Part shown: positions 8,313 through 22,410 of the stretch, piece by piece
Layout: each line of letters opens with the position of its first letter
How positions within the stretch are numbered: position 1 is the stretch's first letter
Source: Arthrobacter sp. HY1533
Lineage (GTDB): Bacteria; Actinomycetota; Actinomycetes; Actinomycetales; Micrococcaceae
Length of the DNA: 32,089 nucleotides
Direction: 5' to 3'
NCBI RefSeq assembly: GCF_027568515.1
Contig: NZ_JANKZF010000042.1
Span: forward strand, 1-32,089
Made by a program: the position numbers and the translations under genes
Notes under the pieces: generated by a model
Told to the model about the DNA's origin: nothing
Databases searched by the model: none
Seen by the model: only the letters and a program-made list of their open reading frames with translations

Positions 8313-11300
8313 GTGGGCACCATGCGGCATGATGGAGCCGTGCAAGGAACAACGCCCGGCGGTCCGCCCACCACCGCCATGACCCAATTCGCCGCGGCCA
8401 CGCGCGAATGGTTCCTCGGCGCGTTCGGATCCCCCACCCCGGCCCAGGCGGGGGCCTGGGAGGCCATTGCCGGCGGCGCACATTCCCTGGTGGTTGCCCC
8501 CACGGGTTCCGGCAAGACCCTGGCTGCTTTCCTGTGGTCGCTGGACGGGTTGATCGCCCAGCCGCCCGCGAACCCCCAGCCCGGGGAAAAGGCCAGCACC
8601 CGTGTCCTGTACATTTCGCCGCTGAAGGCCTTGGGCGTGGACGTGGAACGCAACCTCCGGGCGCCCCTGATCGGCATCACCCAGACAGCCGCCCGCCTGG
8701 GCCTGGCCGCCCCGCACGTCAGCGTGGGCGTGCGTTCCGGCGACACTCCGGCCAGTGAGCGCCGCCGCCTCCTGAGCCACCCCCCGGACATCCTCATCAC
8801 CACGCCGGAATCCCTGTACCTGATGCTGACGTCCAAGGCCCGGGAAACCCTCACCGGCGTGCACACCATCATCATTGACGAGGTCCACGCCGTGGCCGGC
8901 ACCAAGCGCGGCGCCCACCTGGCCGTTTCACTGGAGCGGCTCGACGCCCTGCTGGACACCCCTGCCCAGCGCATCGGGCTCTCAGCCACCGTGGAGCCGC
9001 ACTCCACCGTGGCCCGCTTCCTGGGCGGGTTGGCGCCGGTGACCATCGTGGCGCCCGCGAGCACCAAGACCTGGAACCTGGCGGTCACTGTCCCTGTTGC
9101 CGACATGACCGAGCTGCCGGCGCTGGCCGCCGCACACGACCTCGGCCCCGCCTCCGGGCTGGCCCCCAACGCCTCCATCTGGCCGCATGTGGAGGAAAAG
9201 ATTGTGGACGCCGTGCTGGCCAAGAACTCCACCATCATCTTTGCCAATTCGCGGCGGCTGGCCGAGCGGCTCACGGGCCGCCTCAACGAGATTTACGTGG
9301 AGCGGCTCGAACTGGATTCGCTGGTCGAGCCTGTCGAGACCCCTGGACCGGACTTCGACAAGCTCAACCACCGGTCCCCCACCCGGCTGCCGGCGGAGAT
9401 GATGGCGCAGGCCGGATCCGTGGCGGGTGCGCCCAACGTGCTGGCCAAGGCCCACCATGGCTCGGTCTCCAAGGAACAGCGGGCGCTGATTGAGGACGAC
9501 CTCAAGTCCGGCCGGCTGCGCGCCGTGGTCGCCACCTCCAGCCTTGAGCTGGGCATCGACATGGGCGCCGTGGACCTTGTCATTCAGGTGGAATCGCCGC
9601 CGTCGGTGGCCAGCGGGCTGCAGCGGGTGGGCCGCGCCGGGCACCAGGTGGGCGAGATCTCCGAGGGGTTGCTGTTCCCCAAGCACCGGGCGGACCTGCT
9701 GCATTCGGCCGTGACGGTGGAACGCATGCTGGCCGGCGGGATTGAGCCACTCTCCATCCCGGCCAACCCGCTGGACATCCTGGCCCAGCAGACAGTGGCG
9801 GCCACGGCCCTGGAATCCGTGGACGTGGACGTGTGGTTTGAGACCGTGCGCCGCAGCGCACCGTTTGCCGCCCTGCCGCGATCGGCCTTTGACGCCACGC
9901 TTGACCTGCTGGCCGGGCGCTACCCCTCCGACGAATTTGCCGAGCTGCGCCCGCGCATCGTGTGGGACCGGACCGCCGGCACCATTACGGGACGCCCCGG
10001 CGCACAGCGGCTGGCCGTGACCTCCGGCGGGACCATTCCTGACCGCGGCCTGTTCGGCGTGTTTATTGTTGGTGACTCTGGCGACCGGGCTGGTGGAGAG
10101 CCAGGCGCCACCGCCGCCGCCAACAAGGGCGGGCGCCGCGTGGGCGAGCTCGACGAGGAGATGGTCTACGAATCCCGGGTGGGCGACGTCTTCGCCCTGG
10201 GTGCCACGAGCTGGAAGATCGAGGACATCACCTTTGACCGGGTCCTGGTCTCCCCCGCGTTTGGCCAGCCCGGCAAGCTGCCGTTCTGGAAGGGCGACTC
10301 CCTGGGCCGGCCGGTGGAGCTGGGCCGGGCACTCGGCGCGTTCATCCGCGAGGTCAGCGCCGCGCCGCGCAAAAAAGCACTGGCCCGCTGCACGGCCACG
10401 GGGCTCGATGAGTGGGCCGCGGACAACCTGCTGGGCTACCTGGACGAGCAAAAGGCCGCCACCACGCAGGTCCCGGATGACAAAACCCTCATGGTGGAAC
10501 GCTTCCACGACGAGCTCGGCGACTGGCGCGTGGTCCTGCACAGCCCCTTCGGCATGCCCGTCCACGCCCCCTGGGCGCTGGCTGTCGCGGCAAGGCTGCA
10601 CGAACGGTACGGCCTGGACGGCTCCGCCATGGCCTCCGACGACGGCATTGTGCTGCGCGTGCCCCTCATGGACGACGAACCGCCCGGCGCGGAACTTTTC
10701 ATGTTTGACCCCGAGGAACTGGACGGGATCGTCACGGCCGAGGTGGGCGGCTCCGCCCTGTTCGCCAGCCGATTCCGCGAATGCGCAGCCCGCGCGCTGC
10801 TGCTTCCGCGGCAGAACCCCGGCAAGCGCTCGCCCCTGTGGCAGCAGCGCCAGCGCTCGGCCCAGCTGCTGGACGTGGCCCGGAAGTACCCGCAGTTCCC
10901 CATCGTGCTGGAAACCGTCCGCGAATGCCTGCAGGACGTCTACGACCTCCCCGCGCTGAAGGACATTGCCTCCTCCCTGGAGCGGCGCGAGCTGCGCATG
11001 GTGGAAACCACCACCAACGAGCCCTCGCCCTTTGCCCGCTCCCTGCTCTTTGGCTACGTGGCCAGTTTCCTCTACGAGGGTGATTCCCCGCTGGCCGAGC
11101 GCCGCGCGGCCGCCCTGTCGCTGGACCCCGCCCTGTTGGACGAGCTCCTGGGCCGGGCCGAGCTCCGCGAGCTCCTGGACCCCAACGTCATTGCCCTCAC
11201 CGAGTCGCAGCTGCAGCGCCTGGCCCCCGACCGCCGTGCCCGCGGCATGGAGGGTGCGGCGGACCTGCTGCGACTGCTCGGGCCACTCTCGTTGGACGAG

Positions 11301-13178
11301 GTCGCCGCCCGCCTTGTGCCGGAAGCTGCCCCTGAAACAGACGACGGCGGGCACCTCGCCACGGCGGCCGGCCACCTTGCCGGGCTGGTTGCCGCCAACC
11401 GCGCCCTCCGCGTCAACATGGCAGGAGGGGAACGCTTTGCCGCCATCGAGGACGCGGCCAGGCTGCGCGACGCCCTCGGCATCCCGCTGCCCATGGGTGT
11501 GCCACTGGCCTTCATCGAGCCAGTGGCAGACCCCCTGGGCGACCTCATCGGCCGCTATGCCCGCACGCACGGCCCCTTCACCGCCGCGGATGTGGCGGCC
11601 AGGCTGGGACTGGGTGTCGCCGTCGTGCATTCCGGGCTGGCACGGCTGGCCGCGGACAAGCGGGTCACGGAGGGCGAGTTTATCCCCATCGGCTCCCCTC
11701 ACTCGCAAGCTCGTGACGGGTCCCTCGCCGCCGTGGGCCCATCTGAGGGGCTCGCCCGGCAGGAATCGGGCAGCGAGTGGTGCGACGTCCAGGTGCTGCG
11801 GCAGCTGCGCAGCCGGTCGCTGGCGGCATTGCGGGCCGAGGTTGAGCCAGTGGATGCCGCCGCCTTTGCGCGGTTCCTGCCGGCCTGGCAGCACGTGACG
11901 GCAGCTTCCGGTTCCCCTGCCCTGCGCGGCCTGGACGGAGTCCTGACGGTGGTGGACCAGCTGGCCGGCGTGCCCATTCCGGCCTCCGCGTGGGAGCCGC
12001 TGGTGCTGGCGGCCCGGGTTGCCGACTACTCCCCCGCCATGCTCGATGAGCTCACGGCCACCGGTGAAGTGCTGCTTGCCGGGGCTGGTGCCATTGGCTC
12101 CAACGACGGCTGGTTGAGCCTGCATGTTGCGGAATCCGCGGAGCTGACGCTGGCACCGCCGGCCGACTTTGACCCTACGGAGTTCCAGCAGCGCGTGCTG
12201 GCGGCACTGGAAAACGGTGGCGCCTACTTCTTCCACCAGCTGCGCGAGATGACTGCCGACGGCCCCGACCTTGCCGCCTCCGACTCCGACCTCACGGCTG
12301 CCTTGTGGGAGCTGCTGTGGGCCGGGCGGATCAGCAACGACACTTTCTCCCCCGTCCGGGCGCTGTTGGCCGGCGGGCACACGGCGCACAAGCAGAAGGC
12401 TCCGCCGTCGCGCCTGCGCCCTGCCCGGGCCGGCCGCTACGGCCGGCTGCCCGGACGTGCCGCGGGTGCGCAGCGCGGCGCGCCTCCCCTGGGTGCGGGC
12501 CGCTGGAGCCTGCTGCCTGCCTCACCGCTGGCCGATCCCGCCTCGATGGGCAGCGCCCAGGCCACCCTGCGCGGGCATGCCCTGGCCGAGCTGTTCCTTG
12601 ACCGGTACGGGGTGGTGACGCGCGGCTCCGTCATGAATGTGGGGCTGCCGGGCGGATTCGGCCTCATGTACAAGGTCCTGGCCCGGCTGGAGGAGAGCGG
12701 CAAGTGCCGGCGTGGCTACTTCATCGAGCACCTGGGCGCGGCACAGTTCGCCGTCCCGGCCACGGTGGACAGGCTGCGCACCTTCAGTGAGGATGCCGCA
12801 CTGAACCCGCGCCCGCCGCAGGCCCTTGCCCTGGCCGCCACCGACCCCGCCAACCCGTATGGCGCCGCCCTGCCGTGGCCGCCGCTGGAGTCGGGCCACC
12901 GGCCGGGGCGCAAGGCCGGCGCCCTGGTGGTGATGGTCGACGGCGTCCTGGTCCTGTACGTGGAGCGCGGCGGCCGGACGCTGCTGTGCTTCAGCGGCGA
13001 TGAGTCCGTGGTTGCCCTGGCGGCCGGGGCCTTGGTCCAGGTGGTCCGTCGGGGCGCGATCGACAAGATGGCCATCGAGAAGGTCAACGGGGCAGACGTC
13101 CTGGGCACGCCCCTGGCCGCGGCGCTGCTCGCGGCCGGCGCCAACAGCTCCCCCCGGGGAGTGCGGATCCGTGCCTGA
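8313..13178 (+). CDS. lhr: Lhr-type ATP-dependent DNA helicase, full length
   Basis: A 1621-residue superfamily-2 helicase of the long actinobacterial Lhr type (mycobacterial Lhr is about 1500 residues). Motifs on this numbering: Walker A APTGSGKT (62-69), DEVH (189-192), SATVEP (near 225), a SSLELGIDMG block (near 412) and QRVGRAGH (437-444). The winged-helix and Lhr core follow, then the long C-terminal extension. Mycobacterial Lhr is a DNA-translocating helicase induced by DNA damage. The start is uncertain: the frame opens at GTG 8313, and GTG 8340 or ATG 8379 are possible, none with a strong ribosome site; conserved sequence begins after 8379. The gene carries in-frame insertions (9321-9371, about 10066-10125 and about 11690-11785). 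Its TGA overlaps a copy of the nei start sequence. Confidence 0.93.
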   Translation: MGTMRHDGAVQGTTPGGPPTTAMTQFAAATREWFLGAFGSPTPAQAGAWEAIAGGAHSLVVAPTGSGKTLAAFLWSLDGLIAQPPANPQPGEKASTRVLYISPLKALGVDVERNLRAPLIGITQTAARLGLAAPHVSVGVRSGDTPASERRRLLSHPPDILITTPESLYLMLTSKARETLTGVHTIIIDEVHAVAGTKRGAHLAVSLERLDALLDTPAQRIGLSATVEPHSTVARFLGGLAPVTIVAPASTKTWNLAVTVPVADMTELPALAAAHDLGPASGLAPNASIWPHVEEKIVDAVLAKNSTIIFANSRRLAERLTGRLNEIYVERLELDSLVEPVETPGPDFDKLNHRSPTRLPAEMMAQAGSVAGAPNVLAKAHHGSVSKEQRALIEDDLKSGRLRAVVATSSLELGIDMGAVDLVIQVESPPSVASGLQRVGRAGHQVGEISEGLLFPKHRADLLHSAVTVERMLAGGIEPLSIPANPLDILAQQTVAATALESVDVDVWFETVRRSAPFAALPRSAFDATLDLLAGRYPSDEFAELRPRIVWDRTAGTITGRPGAQRLAVTSGGTIPDRGLFGVFIVGDSGDRAGGEPGATAAANKGGRRVGELDEEMVYESRVGDVFALGATSWKIEDITFDRVLVSPAFGQPGKLPFWKGDSLGRPVELGRALGAFIREVSAAPRKKALARCTATGLDEWAADNLLGYLDEQKAATTQVPDDKTLMVERFHDELGDWRVVLHSPFGMPVHAPWALAVAARLHERYGLDGSAMASDDGIVLRVPLMDDEPPGAELFMFDPEELDGIVTAEVGGSALFASRFRECAARALLLPRQNPGKRSPLWQQRQRSAQLLDVARKYPQFPIVLETVRECLQDVYDLPALKDIASSLERRELRMVETTTNEPSPFARSLLFGYVASFLYEGDSPLAERRAAALSLDPALLDELLGRAELRELLDPNVIALTESQLQRLAPDRRARGMEGAADLLRLLGPLSLDEVAARLVPEAAPETDDGGHLATAAGHLAGLVAANRALRVNMAGGERFAAIEDAARLRDALGIPLPMGVPLAFIEPVADPLGDLIGRYARTHGPFTAADVAARLGLGVAVVHSGLARLAADKRVTEGEFIPIGSPHSQARDGSLAAVGPSEGLARQESGSEWCDVQVLRQLRSRSLAALRAEVEPVDAAAFARFLPAWQHVTAASGSPALRGLDGVLTVVDQLAGVPIPASAWEPLVLAARVADYSPAMLDELTATGEVLLAGAGAIGSNDGWLSLHVAESAELTLAPPADFDPTEFQQRVLAALENGGAYFFHQLREMTADGPDLAASDSDLTAALWELLWAGRISNDTFSPVRALLAGGHTAHKQKAPPSRLRPARAGRYGRLPGRAAGAQRGAPPLGAGRWSLLPASPLADPASMGSAQATLRGHALAELFLDRYGVVTRGSVMNVGLPGGFGLMYKVLARLEESGKCRRGYFIEHLGAAQFAVPATVDRLRTFSEDAALNPRPPQALALAATDPANPYGAALPWPPLESGHRPGRKAGALVVMVDGVLVLYVERGGRTLLCFSGDESVVALAAGALVQVVRRGAIDKMAIEKVNGADVLGTPLAAALLAAGANSSPRGVRIRA
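9321..9371 (+). repeat. REP-like palindrome inside the lhr coding sequence
   Basis: GAGCCTGTCGA (9327-9337) faces a near-complement at 9355-9365; the extended 15-bp arms match at 13 of 15. It is the same element found twice at the lhr-nei junction and in part at 22366. It is read in frame as LVEPVETPGPDFDKLNHR (residues about 337-355), between the helicase lobes, where Lhr homologues as I recall them have a shorter loop. Confidence 0.75.
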
Positions 13179-13382
13179 GGGCTTGACCGTGCCTGAGGGC
13201 TTGGCGGTGATTGAGCCTGTCGAAATCGCCACCGGGTCTCGACAGGCTCGACCACCAGCACCCACTCGGGCACAGGGAGCTCACCGTGCCTGAGGGCTTG
13301 GCGGTGATTGAGCCTGTCGAAATCTCCACCGGGTCTCGACAGGCTCGACCACCAGCACCCACTCGGACACCGGGAGCTCACC
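13171..13382 (+). repeat. lhr-nei junction repeats: GTGCCTGAGGGC copies and two 97-bp units with REP palindromes
   Basis: GTGCCTGAGGGC occurs at 13171, 13189, 13286 and 13383. The last is the nei start and the first contains the lhr stop. The 97-bp units 13189-13285 and 13286-13382 differ at only 3 positions. Each contains a perfect 11-bp inverted repeat (GAGCCTGTCGA / TCGACAGGCTC; 13213-13249 and 13310-13346). Without the 212-bp insertion, the lhr stop and nei start would overlap as GTGCCTGA, so this looks like expansion of an overlapping junction. Confidence 0.85.
13189..13293 (+). CDS. Micro-ORF 1 in the lhr-nei junction repeat
   Basis: A 34-codon frame beginning GTG CCT GAG GGC and ending on the TGA inside the next copy of that sequence. 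The GTG copy at 13171 lies in the same frame and would give 40 residues. The product (VPEGLAVIEPVEIATG..) is low-complexity and not expected to be functional. Its interest is that it overlaps lhr or its start sequence at one end and the next micro-ORF by 8 nt at the other. Confidence 0.3.
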   Translation: MPEGLAVIEPVEIATGSRQARPPAPTRAQGAHRA

Positions 13383-13390
13383 GTGCCTGA
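13286..13390 (+). CDS. Micro-ORF 2 in the lhr-nei junction repeat
   Basis: A 34-codon frame copied from micro-ORF 1 by the 97-bp duplication. It starts at the third GTGCCTGAGGGC and stops at the TGA inside the fourth, which is the nei start (8-nt overlap). It could serve as a translational relay from lhr to nei. Expression is untested. Confidence 0.3.
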   Translation: MPEGLAVIEPVEISTGSRQARPPAPTRTPGAHRA

Positions 13391-14195
13391 GGGCGACACC
13401 GTCTGGCGCCAGGCCAAGGATCTGCGCGCCGTCCTTGAGGGGCGGGAGCTGGTGTCCAGTGATTTCAGAGTCCCCGCCCACGCCACCTTGGACCTGGCCG
13501 GATCCACTGTCACCTCCGTGCAGTCCCGCGGAAAGCACCTGCTCATGTTCGTGGCCGGACGGGTCATCCATTCACACCTGTCCATGGAAGGGCACTGGGA
13601 CATTTACCCCGTGGACGTCACCGGCCGGGCAGCAAAATGGCGCCGGCCCGCGTTCACGGCCAGGGTGGTGCTGCAAACCAGTGCGGCGGCAGCCGTGGGC
13701 TTCTCACTGGGCACGCTGGAAGTCTTGCCCGAAGCCCGGGTTGGGGACGCCGTCGGGCATCTTGGGCCGGACCTGCTGGGGCCGGACTGGGACGCGGAGG
13801 AAGCACTGCGGCGCCTGCAGGCGGATCCGGGCCGGGCTGTGGGGCTCGCGTTGCTGGACCAGCGGAACCTGGCCGGCATTGGCAACATCTACCGCAATGA
13901 ACTGTGCTTTTTGGGCGGCGCGCACCCCGCTGCGGCCATCGGGGACGTGCCCGGCTTGCCGCGCATGCTCGGGTTGGCCAAGCGGCTGCTGGAGGCCAAC
14001 AAGGACAGGGCGGCACGGTCCACCACCGGCGGACCTGCGCGCGGAGATGCCGCCTCGTGGGTTTACGGGCTGGCCGGGAAGCCGTGCAAGCGCTGCGGCA
14101 GCCTGGTCAGGCACGGCAAGTTGGCCGATCCGGCGTTTCCGGCCCGCGGCGCCCGGGACATTTACTGGTGCCCGCGCTGCCAGCCAGGTCCCTGA
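13383..14195 (+). CDS. nei: Fpg/Nei family DNA glycosylase (endonuclease VIII type)
   Basis: A 270-residue base-excision repair enzyme that removes oxidised bases and nicks the abasic site. After Met removal the protein starts Pro-Glu-Gly: catalytic Pro2 and Glu3. The conserved beta-hairpin Lys51 lies in SRGKHLLM. The helix-two-turn-helix is seen at NLAGIGNIYRNE, and a four-Cys zinc finger at the C-terminus (CKRC ... CPRC). GTG 13383 must be the start because the catalytic proline has to be residue 2; upstream in-frame sequence is REP repeat. In mycobacteria nei2 is also the neighbour of lhr, supporting a joint repair role. Upstream repeats duplicate its first 12 bases. Confidence 0.92.
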   Translation: MPEGDTVWRQAKDLRAVLEGRELVSSDFRVPAHATLDLAGSTVTSVQSRGKHLLMFVAGRVIHSHLSMEGHWDIYPVDVTGRAAKWRRPAFTARVVLQTSAAAAVGFSLGTLEVLPEARVGDAVGHLGPDLLGPDWDAEEALRRLQADPGRAVGLALLDQRNLAGIGNIYRNELCFLGGAHPAAAIGDVPGLPRMLGLAKRLLEANKDRAARSTTGGPARGDAASWVYGLAGKPCKRCGSLVRHGKLADPAFPARGARDIYWCPRCQPGP

Positions 14196-22354: not shown

Positions 22355-22365
22355 CTCAAAGCGGG

Positions 22366-22410
22366 GGTCTCGACAGGCTCGACCACCGGCGACCGGCTCG
22401 ACCACCGGCG
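22366..22410. repeat. Partial REP element with tandem half-units
   Basis: TCGACAGGCTC at 22370-22380 is one arm of the palindrome seen at lhr-nei. GGCTCGACCACCGGCG then appears at 22376-22391 and again at 22395-22410. The other arm is missing. It lies just after the ppc stop. Confidence 0.7.

Follow-up and report, generated by a model that had tools for sequence, protein, structure and literature searches.

Spacers between lhr and nei2 in Micrococcales mostly form relay reading frames that probably hold translational coupling

The commonest overlaps between the genes of coupled pairs are 4, 1 and 8 nt, and gaps of 20-38 nt nearly abolish the coupling of native pairs from E. coli and Haloferax, as stated in the passages of PMC10666635 that deal with overlap and spacing. 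The corresponding part of a review (PMC12548453) adds that some coupling occurs at longer distances too, and it describes mycobacterial interspersed repetitive units (MIRUs), in which an open reading frame (ORF) of the repeat keeps coupling where the repeat is inserted. MIRUs are the nearest precedent for the locus analyzed here, which is the junction of lhr and nei2 in a 32,089-nt stretch of DNA (the window; contig NZ_JANKZF010000042.1) from the 4.3-Mb draft genome of Arthrobacter sp. HY1533 (68 contigs). According to their NCBIfam matches the two genes encode an Lhr-type helicase followed by a Nei2-type glycosylase. DNA damage induces the two genes in Mycobacterium smegmatis, and each is required against psoralen-UVA, as reported in the passages of PMC11323726 on this operon; a shared role in damage would give a reason for coupled synthesis of the two proteins. 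In the window, lhr and nei2 are connected by a chain of ORFs that overlap each other and both genes, and from the comparison of related junctions it is likely that spacers between lhr and nei2 are kept as such relay frames to hold the translational coupling of the pair.

Relay frames at lhr-nei2 junctions

The original prediction described a sequence present four times at this junction, with the lhr stop in the first copy and the nei2 start as the last. This was borne out exactly: GTGCCTGAGGGC occurs in four exact copies with spacings of 18, 97 and 97 (Table 1), and no further mismatch-free copy was found in the whole window. GTGCCTGAGGGC codes for the conserved N-terminus of Nei2 (M-P-E-G), while in a different frame its TGA serves as the lhr stop. 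The two predicted 97-bp units differ, as had been claimed, at three positions, which were located at 13228, 13270 and 13274, and each unit contains a Shine-Dalgarno (SD)-like GGGAG 6 nt ahead of the next GTGCCTGAGGGC copy. Since 97 = 1 mod 3, each duplication of the unit adds one relay ORF. The resulting chain runs from lhr through a first ORF of 40 (or 34) codons and a second of 34 codons to nei2, and its neighboring members always share the 8 nt of GTGCCTGA. A relay ORF re-creates an overlap on either side of the spacer. The remaining two frames of the repeat are not open and contain stops. The predicted 34-residue frames linked by GTGCCTGA were thus found, except that the longer form of the first had been overlooked: copies 1 and 2 lie 18 bp apart in the same frame, and the first ORF therefore has 40 aa if started on copy 1.

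Such a chain could also arise without selection as a by-product of repeat insertion, because duplication of the overlap yields a relay if its length is 1 mod 3 and it contains no stop. The copies at the window locus are duplicates, and their likeness to each other is thus no matter of chance. In shuffles, however, the chance of a relay at this one locus was 0.14-0.23, and short open frames come easily in G+C-rich DNA. A chance relay is therefore plausible for the window locus alone, and significance has to come from other lineages.

Junctions were defined in relatives by locating nei2 and the C-terminus of lhr. The Micrococcaceae sample comprised 100 of 325 matching genomes, taken by region, together with loci from searches, and lower-scoring genera are under-sampled in it. 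Rows without lhr upstream were excluded (9, 11, 6 of 40 and 10 of 70 in successive samples), as was one locus without a start (L032), and duplicate strains were merged, which reduced 232 rows to 218. The closest named nei2 relative found was that of Arthrobacter sp. E3 (81% identity), and the MPEG start of nei2 is conserved in relatives. Relatives with a direct overlap had been predicted. Of 124 Micrococcaceae junctions, 74 showed lhr and nei2 directly overlapping by 8 nt and the other 50 were spaced; in other families of the order lhr and nei2 overlap by 8, 14 or 1 nt. Since most relatives have the direct GTGCCTGA overlap, the chain in the window has replaced an ancestral overlap.

A relay ORF was defined as an ORF whose start lies on the lhr stop and whose own stop lies on the nei2 start, ends up to +24 of nei2 being permitted in the search. 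Relay ORFs, 5-162 codons long in Micrococcaceae, were present in 37 of 40 spacer clusters of this family (similar spacers merged), compared to 13.0 expected from dinucleotide shuffles with random phase (p = 3e-17) and 25.2 from shuffles in which the length was kept (p = 1e-8). When duplicates were merged and six later Micrococcaceae loci were included, a relay was found in 32 of 37, against 11.5 expected (p = 1e-14) or 22.5 with length kept (p = 1e-6). In 31 of 40 clusters the gap was 2 mod 3, the phase required for overlaps of 8 nt with lhr and with nei2 alike. That the relays tabulated over all taxa contain no stop follows largely from how a relay is defined and was not used as evidence. The frame remains open in the 8 of 42 Micrococcaceae relay rows whose lhr stop is now TAG or TAA.

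The relays are built in different ways. Single frames reach 77 (L024), 86 (L006), 140 (L186) and 162 codons (L194), and the long open spacers include ones of 407 and 473 nt. Sinomonas humi (L053) has three tandem 28-bp units of 11 codons each and Sinomonas albida (L051) a two-step relay; L020 likewise has a relay of two steps, and its second ORF begins at ATGAGTGA or 12 nt upstream of it in the same frame. Two 5-codon ORFs were found in L199, with overlaps of 4 nt, 4 nt and, last, 1 nt, and the relay of Cryobacterium (L085) has 37 codons. Among all taxa sampled before the second family (see below), 57 of 66 relays consist of one step, eight of two and one of three. The relay ends at +8 of nei2 in 51 of 66, at +14 in 10 and at +1 in 5 (all taxa), and at the other side an RTG lies 8 nt back from the lhr stop end in 44 of 66 relays and 4 nt back in 20.

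A quick tree was built from ~180 residues of the lhr C-terminus (163 rows, several families). Parsimony placed 22 changes from overlap to spacer on it, and 20 of them are followed by one or more relay rows. Spaced junctions changed further in length 29 times, 24 times by a multiple of 3 (p = 6e-8). At the DNA level the spacers (41 of at least 30 nt, E up to 1e-3) were mostly without matches to each other. Matches occurred within the group with a gap of 38 (L130, L133, L134, L136, L138-L140, L143), and the remaining ones were L006-L020, L165-L194 and L176-L186. L006 and L020 have a stretch of 35 nt in common (91%), although they are placed as separate events on the tree. The genus of L006, L007, L013, L020 and L024 has several different spacers of ~200-300 nt at the lhr-nei2 junction, which looks like an insertion hot spot there. 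Small tandem duplications at the lhr stop, of ~12, 14 and 15 bp by eye, recur in L088 and L090 (Rhodococcus), L025, L199, L207 and L216.

Taken together, these comparisons suggest that selection keeps the reading frame and not the peptide, which seems irrelevant. Alternatively, the relay product itself might be useful, either as a small protein or as a C-terminal extension of Lhr made by +1 frameshifting at the lhr end; in L013 the frame is open through the lhr end despite a lost start codon. However, relay lengths range from 2 to 162 aa across taxa with no shared peptide seen by eye, and frameshifting would need neither the RTG 8 nt back nor the RTG 4 nt back that the relays carry. This explanation is therefore very improbable.

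A second family (f19, presumably Microbacteriaceae) was sampled as a test. Of its 70 loci, 60 had lhr upstream, and these comprised 22 direct junctions, 21 relays and 17 spaced junctions without relay. Eighteen of the 38 spaced junctions had an RTG 4 nt back from the lhr stop end and none 8 nt back, for which the relay phase is a gap of 0 mod 3; all 18 had this phase and 17 had relays. In four more the RTG was 8 nt back, for which the relay phase is a gap of 2 mod 3; all four had this phase and a relay. Hence, where a start overlapped the lhr stop, the relay phase was found in 22 of 22 and a whole relay in 21 of 22, whereas the other 16 had neither RTG and no relay, 11 of them with gaps of ≤16 nt. 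At gaps >16 nt, relays were present in 18 of 23 clusters versus 6.2 expected (p = 2e-8); L430, with a gap of 994 nt, was beyond the range counted. These phases also bear on the idea that the only constraint is one against an in-frame N-terminal extension of Nei2, with Pro2 after the start, which would remove one of three phases. The conserved MPEG start agrees with it, but it allows two phases, yet one dominates (31 of 40 clusters in Micrococcaceae, 22 of 22 here), and it leaves the open frames unexplained, making it the least probable of the alternatives.

In a smaller set of other Micrococcales, relays were present in 10 of 10 at gaps >16 nt (3.2 expected). When the three sets were pooled, 6 of 17 clusters with gaps ≤16 nt had a relay, compared to 57 of 66 with longer gaps (p = 6e-5). 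Few relays at short gaps are as expected if close spacing suffices by itself. Among the named loci, many of which are Streptomyces and Rhodococcus, relays at long gaps numbered 8 of 35 against 2.9 expected, most of the eight being Micrococcales, and in the sampled loci outside the order relays were found only in L062, L086, L088, L089, L090 and L093. In these genomes the relay rule thus belongs to Micrococcales, with scattered cases outside.

The main rival to coupling is protection of the spacer RNA: a translated relay would keep the RNA from being bare and so block Rho termination before nei2, without any need for exact reinitiation. Rho-driven polarity on untranslated RNA is established according to the part of the review (PMC12548453) that covers it. 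The rival would also account for the spacers of 407 and 473 nt that stay open. However, relays are common already above 16 nt, and the gap is <60 nt in 43 of 61 relay rows, which seems too short for exposing a Rho loading site. In addition, relay ends are precise, at +1, +8 or +14 of nei2, and do not fall anywhere nearby. We therefore consider protection against Rho unlikely as the explanation.

Control gene pairs and exceptions

To see whether relays are a general feature of gene junctions, four other gene pairs from Micrococcaceae were analyzed likewise. Relays occurred in 4 of 32 spaced control junctions against the 37 of 40 of lhr-nei2 (p = 3e-12), the controls being counted per row and lhr-nei2 per cluster; for gaps >16 nt the values were 2 of 15 and 57 of 66 (p = 1e-7). 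The pair of SDR and acyl-CoA dehydrogenase genes (30 loci) gave 14 direct and 11 spaced junctions and a relay in 2 of 10, after 5 loci without a start codon had been dropped and L284, in which an alternative start gives a 4-nt overlap, had been omitted. For the other three pairs (30 loci each) a relay to any possible start was counted. Of these, trpB-trpA had 28 direct and 2 spaced junctions and no relay, one gap of 646 nt probably reflecting a wrong start; ruvA-ruvB had 15 direct and 14 spaced junctions, 2 of the latter with a relay, and 1 unclear one; and ftsW-murG had 1 direct and 6 spaced junctions and no relay, 11 loci being without an upstream match and 12 without a usable start. The window pair with a methionine gamma-lyase-like gene was not used as a control, as an orthologue is clear only within the genus.

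The chance origin that is plausible for the window locus alone was rejected on the wider set. Relays exceed expectation in Micrococcaceae (37 of 40 against 13) and in the second family (18 of 23 against 6.2), multiples of 3 make up 24 of 29 length changes, and other pairs form relays in 4 of 32, all of which makes a by-product without selection highly unlikely. The original prediction had offered both possibilities, preserved coupling or a by-product of repeat insertion; the excess of relays over shuffles and over four other gene pairs favors coupling.

Several observations weigh against the retention of spacers as relay frames for coupling. The control pairs are few and their starts less certain. 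L007 has no relay owing to an internal TAG and L013 has none owing to loss of the RTG (GTG), although the relay phase is kept in both and the frame of L013 is open; L266 and L268 also lack a relay, as do five of the 23 second-family spacers >16 nt (L436, L446, L451, L474, L488). Sampled Streptomyces junctions and most sampled Rhodococcus junctions are spaced without a relay. In the second family, openness against same-length shuffles is weak (18 versus 15.0, p = 0.04), so that phase and not openness carries the signal there. Moreover, nei2 starts usually have a good SD-like site, which makes independent initiation possible, and the lineages are not independent, a problem that the tree count lessens and does not remove. 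L007 and L013 count as a single event on the tree, and the relay phase that they keep despite the internal TAG or the lost RTG has the look of a former relay in decay. Past the internal TAG of L007 the frame still runs to the nei2 start, with new start codons 13-22 nt upstream of nei2, and may represent what is left as a short leader-like ORF. The gaps of L029, L034 and L262 are 7, 15 and 3 nt.

The 97-bp repeat and the junction RNA

The features of the window junction are collected in Table 1. The match of the nei2 product to the Nei2 model NF040775 (E = 4.4e-85, 285 bits) lies below the model cut-off of 400.

Table 1. Coordinates of the lhr-nei2 junction in the window
Feature	Position	Strand	Basis or remark
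lhr, large DEXH-box helicase gene	8313..13178	+	ORF (start per ORF list); NCBIfam NF007284, 1803 bits
GGGGAG, SD-like, within lhr, 9 nt upstream of copy 1	13156..13161	+	sequence
Copy 1 of GTGCCTGAGGGC: contains the lhr stop and the earliest candidate start of micro-ORF 1	13171..13182	+	
Micro-ORF 1, 40 aa	13171..13293	+	34 aa from 13189 (copy 2); stop is the TGA of copy 3
lhr stop TGA	13176-13178	+	inside copy 1
Copy 2 of GTGCCTGAGGGC	13189..13200	+	
97-bp unit 1: copy 2, palindrome and SD-like GGGAG	13189..13285	+	
Unit 1 palindromic REP-like core	13205..13256	+	unit positions 17-68, matched whole or in part elsewhere in the genome
Copy 3 of GTGCCTGAGGGC: micro-ORF 1 stop, micro-ORF 2 start	13286..13297	+	
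97-bp unit 2	13286..13382	+	3 differences from unit 1
Micro-ORF 2, 34 aa	13286..13390	+	stop is the TGA within the nei2 start
Unit 2 palindromic REP-like core	13302..13353	+	
GGGAG, SD-like, 6 nt upstream of nei2	13372..13376	+	paired in predicted RNA fold
Copy 4 of GTGCCTGAGGGC: nei2 start (M-P-E-G)	13383..13394	+	
nei2, Fpg/Nei-family DNA glycosylase/AP lyase gene	13383..14195	+	NCBIfam NF040775 (Nei2)

The 97-bp units had been predicted to contain repetitive extragenic palindromic (REP) sequences, and the palindromic core proved to be dispersed in the genome. At least 72 whole or partial matches to the unit were found in 4.3 Mb, a lower bound because 40 of 120 first-look candidates were scored. 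Among the matches listed, the full-length unit occurs twice, both times at the lhr-nei2 junction, and the other 70 are all or part of the palindrome, mostly unit positions 17-68. With this copy number and its inverted repeats the palindrome behaves as a REP-like element, that is, a short interspersed palindrome in many copies; a literature search found no published account of this family. A REP-like palindrome akin to the junction core lies at 9322-9373 within the lhr coding frame and is read in frame, and at 22365-22410 the arm of this palindrome, CGACAGGCTCGACCACCGG, is repeated in a short tandem array. From 13189 to 13273 the 97-bp unit forms an imperfect inverted repeat with 35-nt arms including GTGCCTGAG, a structure that may bear on the origin of the duplication.

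The RNA of the window junction is predicted to fold far more stably than shuffles (z = -6.3), with a mean pairing probability of 0.99 for the nei2 SD and start codon. As both are paired in the fold, a translating ribosome would open it. Anti-SD pairing of ≤ -6 kcal/mol was found before 88-90% of nei2 starts and 86% of relay starts, compared to 30% inside lhr. A search against Rfam gave three weak microRNA matches only, which lie far below the gathering score and were rejected.

Proposed mechanism and comparison with known systems

The kept frame most likely hands ribosomes that have finished lhr over to nei2 through termination-reinitiation. In the direct state, ribosomes ending lhr would restart immediately on the overlapping nei2 start. 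Inserted or duplicated DNA would keep this coupling only as an ORF tied to overlaps at the lhr stop and the nei2 start, in which case ribosomes would step from lhr to the relay ORF, if present to a further relay ORF, and then to nei2. Selection would act on the frame and its two ends. In the window, the relay would have formed by tandem duplication of the 97-bp unit, which brings along a nei2 start, the palindrome and an SD-like site. We infer both that ribosomes use the relay and that coupling, not cover of the RNA by ribosomes, is the trait under selection.

On a wider scale, we lean towards regarding relay ORFs as a class of elements selected only as open frames of the right phase, with no selection on the peptide, up to ~160 codons long and sometimes of two or three steps; many short intercistronic ORFs of bacteria may be such relays. 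The junctions provide comparative evidence, drawn from wild genomes, for selection on the close stop-start coupling of one gene pair. They would also explain how some short ORFs exist without a functional peptide, which calls for caution in annotating relay ORFs as genes. Because relays are rare at ≤16 nt and common above, they also make it testable whether a post-termination ribosome scans or needs delivery, and they would offer a sequence-free design rule for gene spacing in operons.

Coupling by overlap, ribosome-delivering upstream ORFs (uORFs) and MIRUs are known. The pattern suggested here, in which one junction with mostly unrelated spacers keeps its frame regardless of the peptide in ~20 separate tree events, was not found in print as a general rule, and a literature search by titles and abstract starts, mainly in non-subscription journals, found no description of sequence-independent relay ORFs. 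The relays resemble termination-reinitiation at -4, -1 and -8 overlaps, as treated in the relevant passages of PMC10666635 (see also PMC6728339), in the types of overlap and the need for close spacing, and the overlapping stop and start codons of a coupled pair are present in relatives (-8 in Micrococcaceae; -8, -14 and -1 in other families). In known coupled pairs the genes themselves overlap, whereas here ORFs of arbitrary sequence would carry the ribosome over a gap. With ribosome-delivering uORFs, as outlined in a part of PMC12548453, they would share that a short ORF serves translation of the next gene; unlike uORFs, a relay is tied at both ends, to an upstream and a downstream gene. Salmonella mgtQ, between mgtC and mgtB, is likewise an intercistronic short ORF promoting translation of the next gene, but according to the headings of PMC8092293 it depends on acidic codons and stem-loops, while relays have no shared sequence. 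The mycobacterial lhr-nei2 operon has the same gene pair, and the passages of PMC11323726 that describe it mention neither a spacer ORF nor translational coupling.

Closest are the MIRUs. As described in that part of the review (PMC12548453), they too are short repeats at gene junctions, and coupling of the repeat's ORF to the next gene leaves the expression of that gene largely unharmed by the insertion. In the window the ORFs of the repeat likewise overlap the neighboring genes. MIRUs form one dispersed family with a 4-nt overlap, whereas the whole 97-bp unit was seen only at this junction among the matches listed, and its overlap is the 8-nt GTGCCTGA. The window locus thus works like a MIRU but falls outside that family on two counts, its undispersed unit and its different type of overlap. 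Other lineages use mostly unrelated sequences for what appears to be the same job at the same junction.

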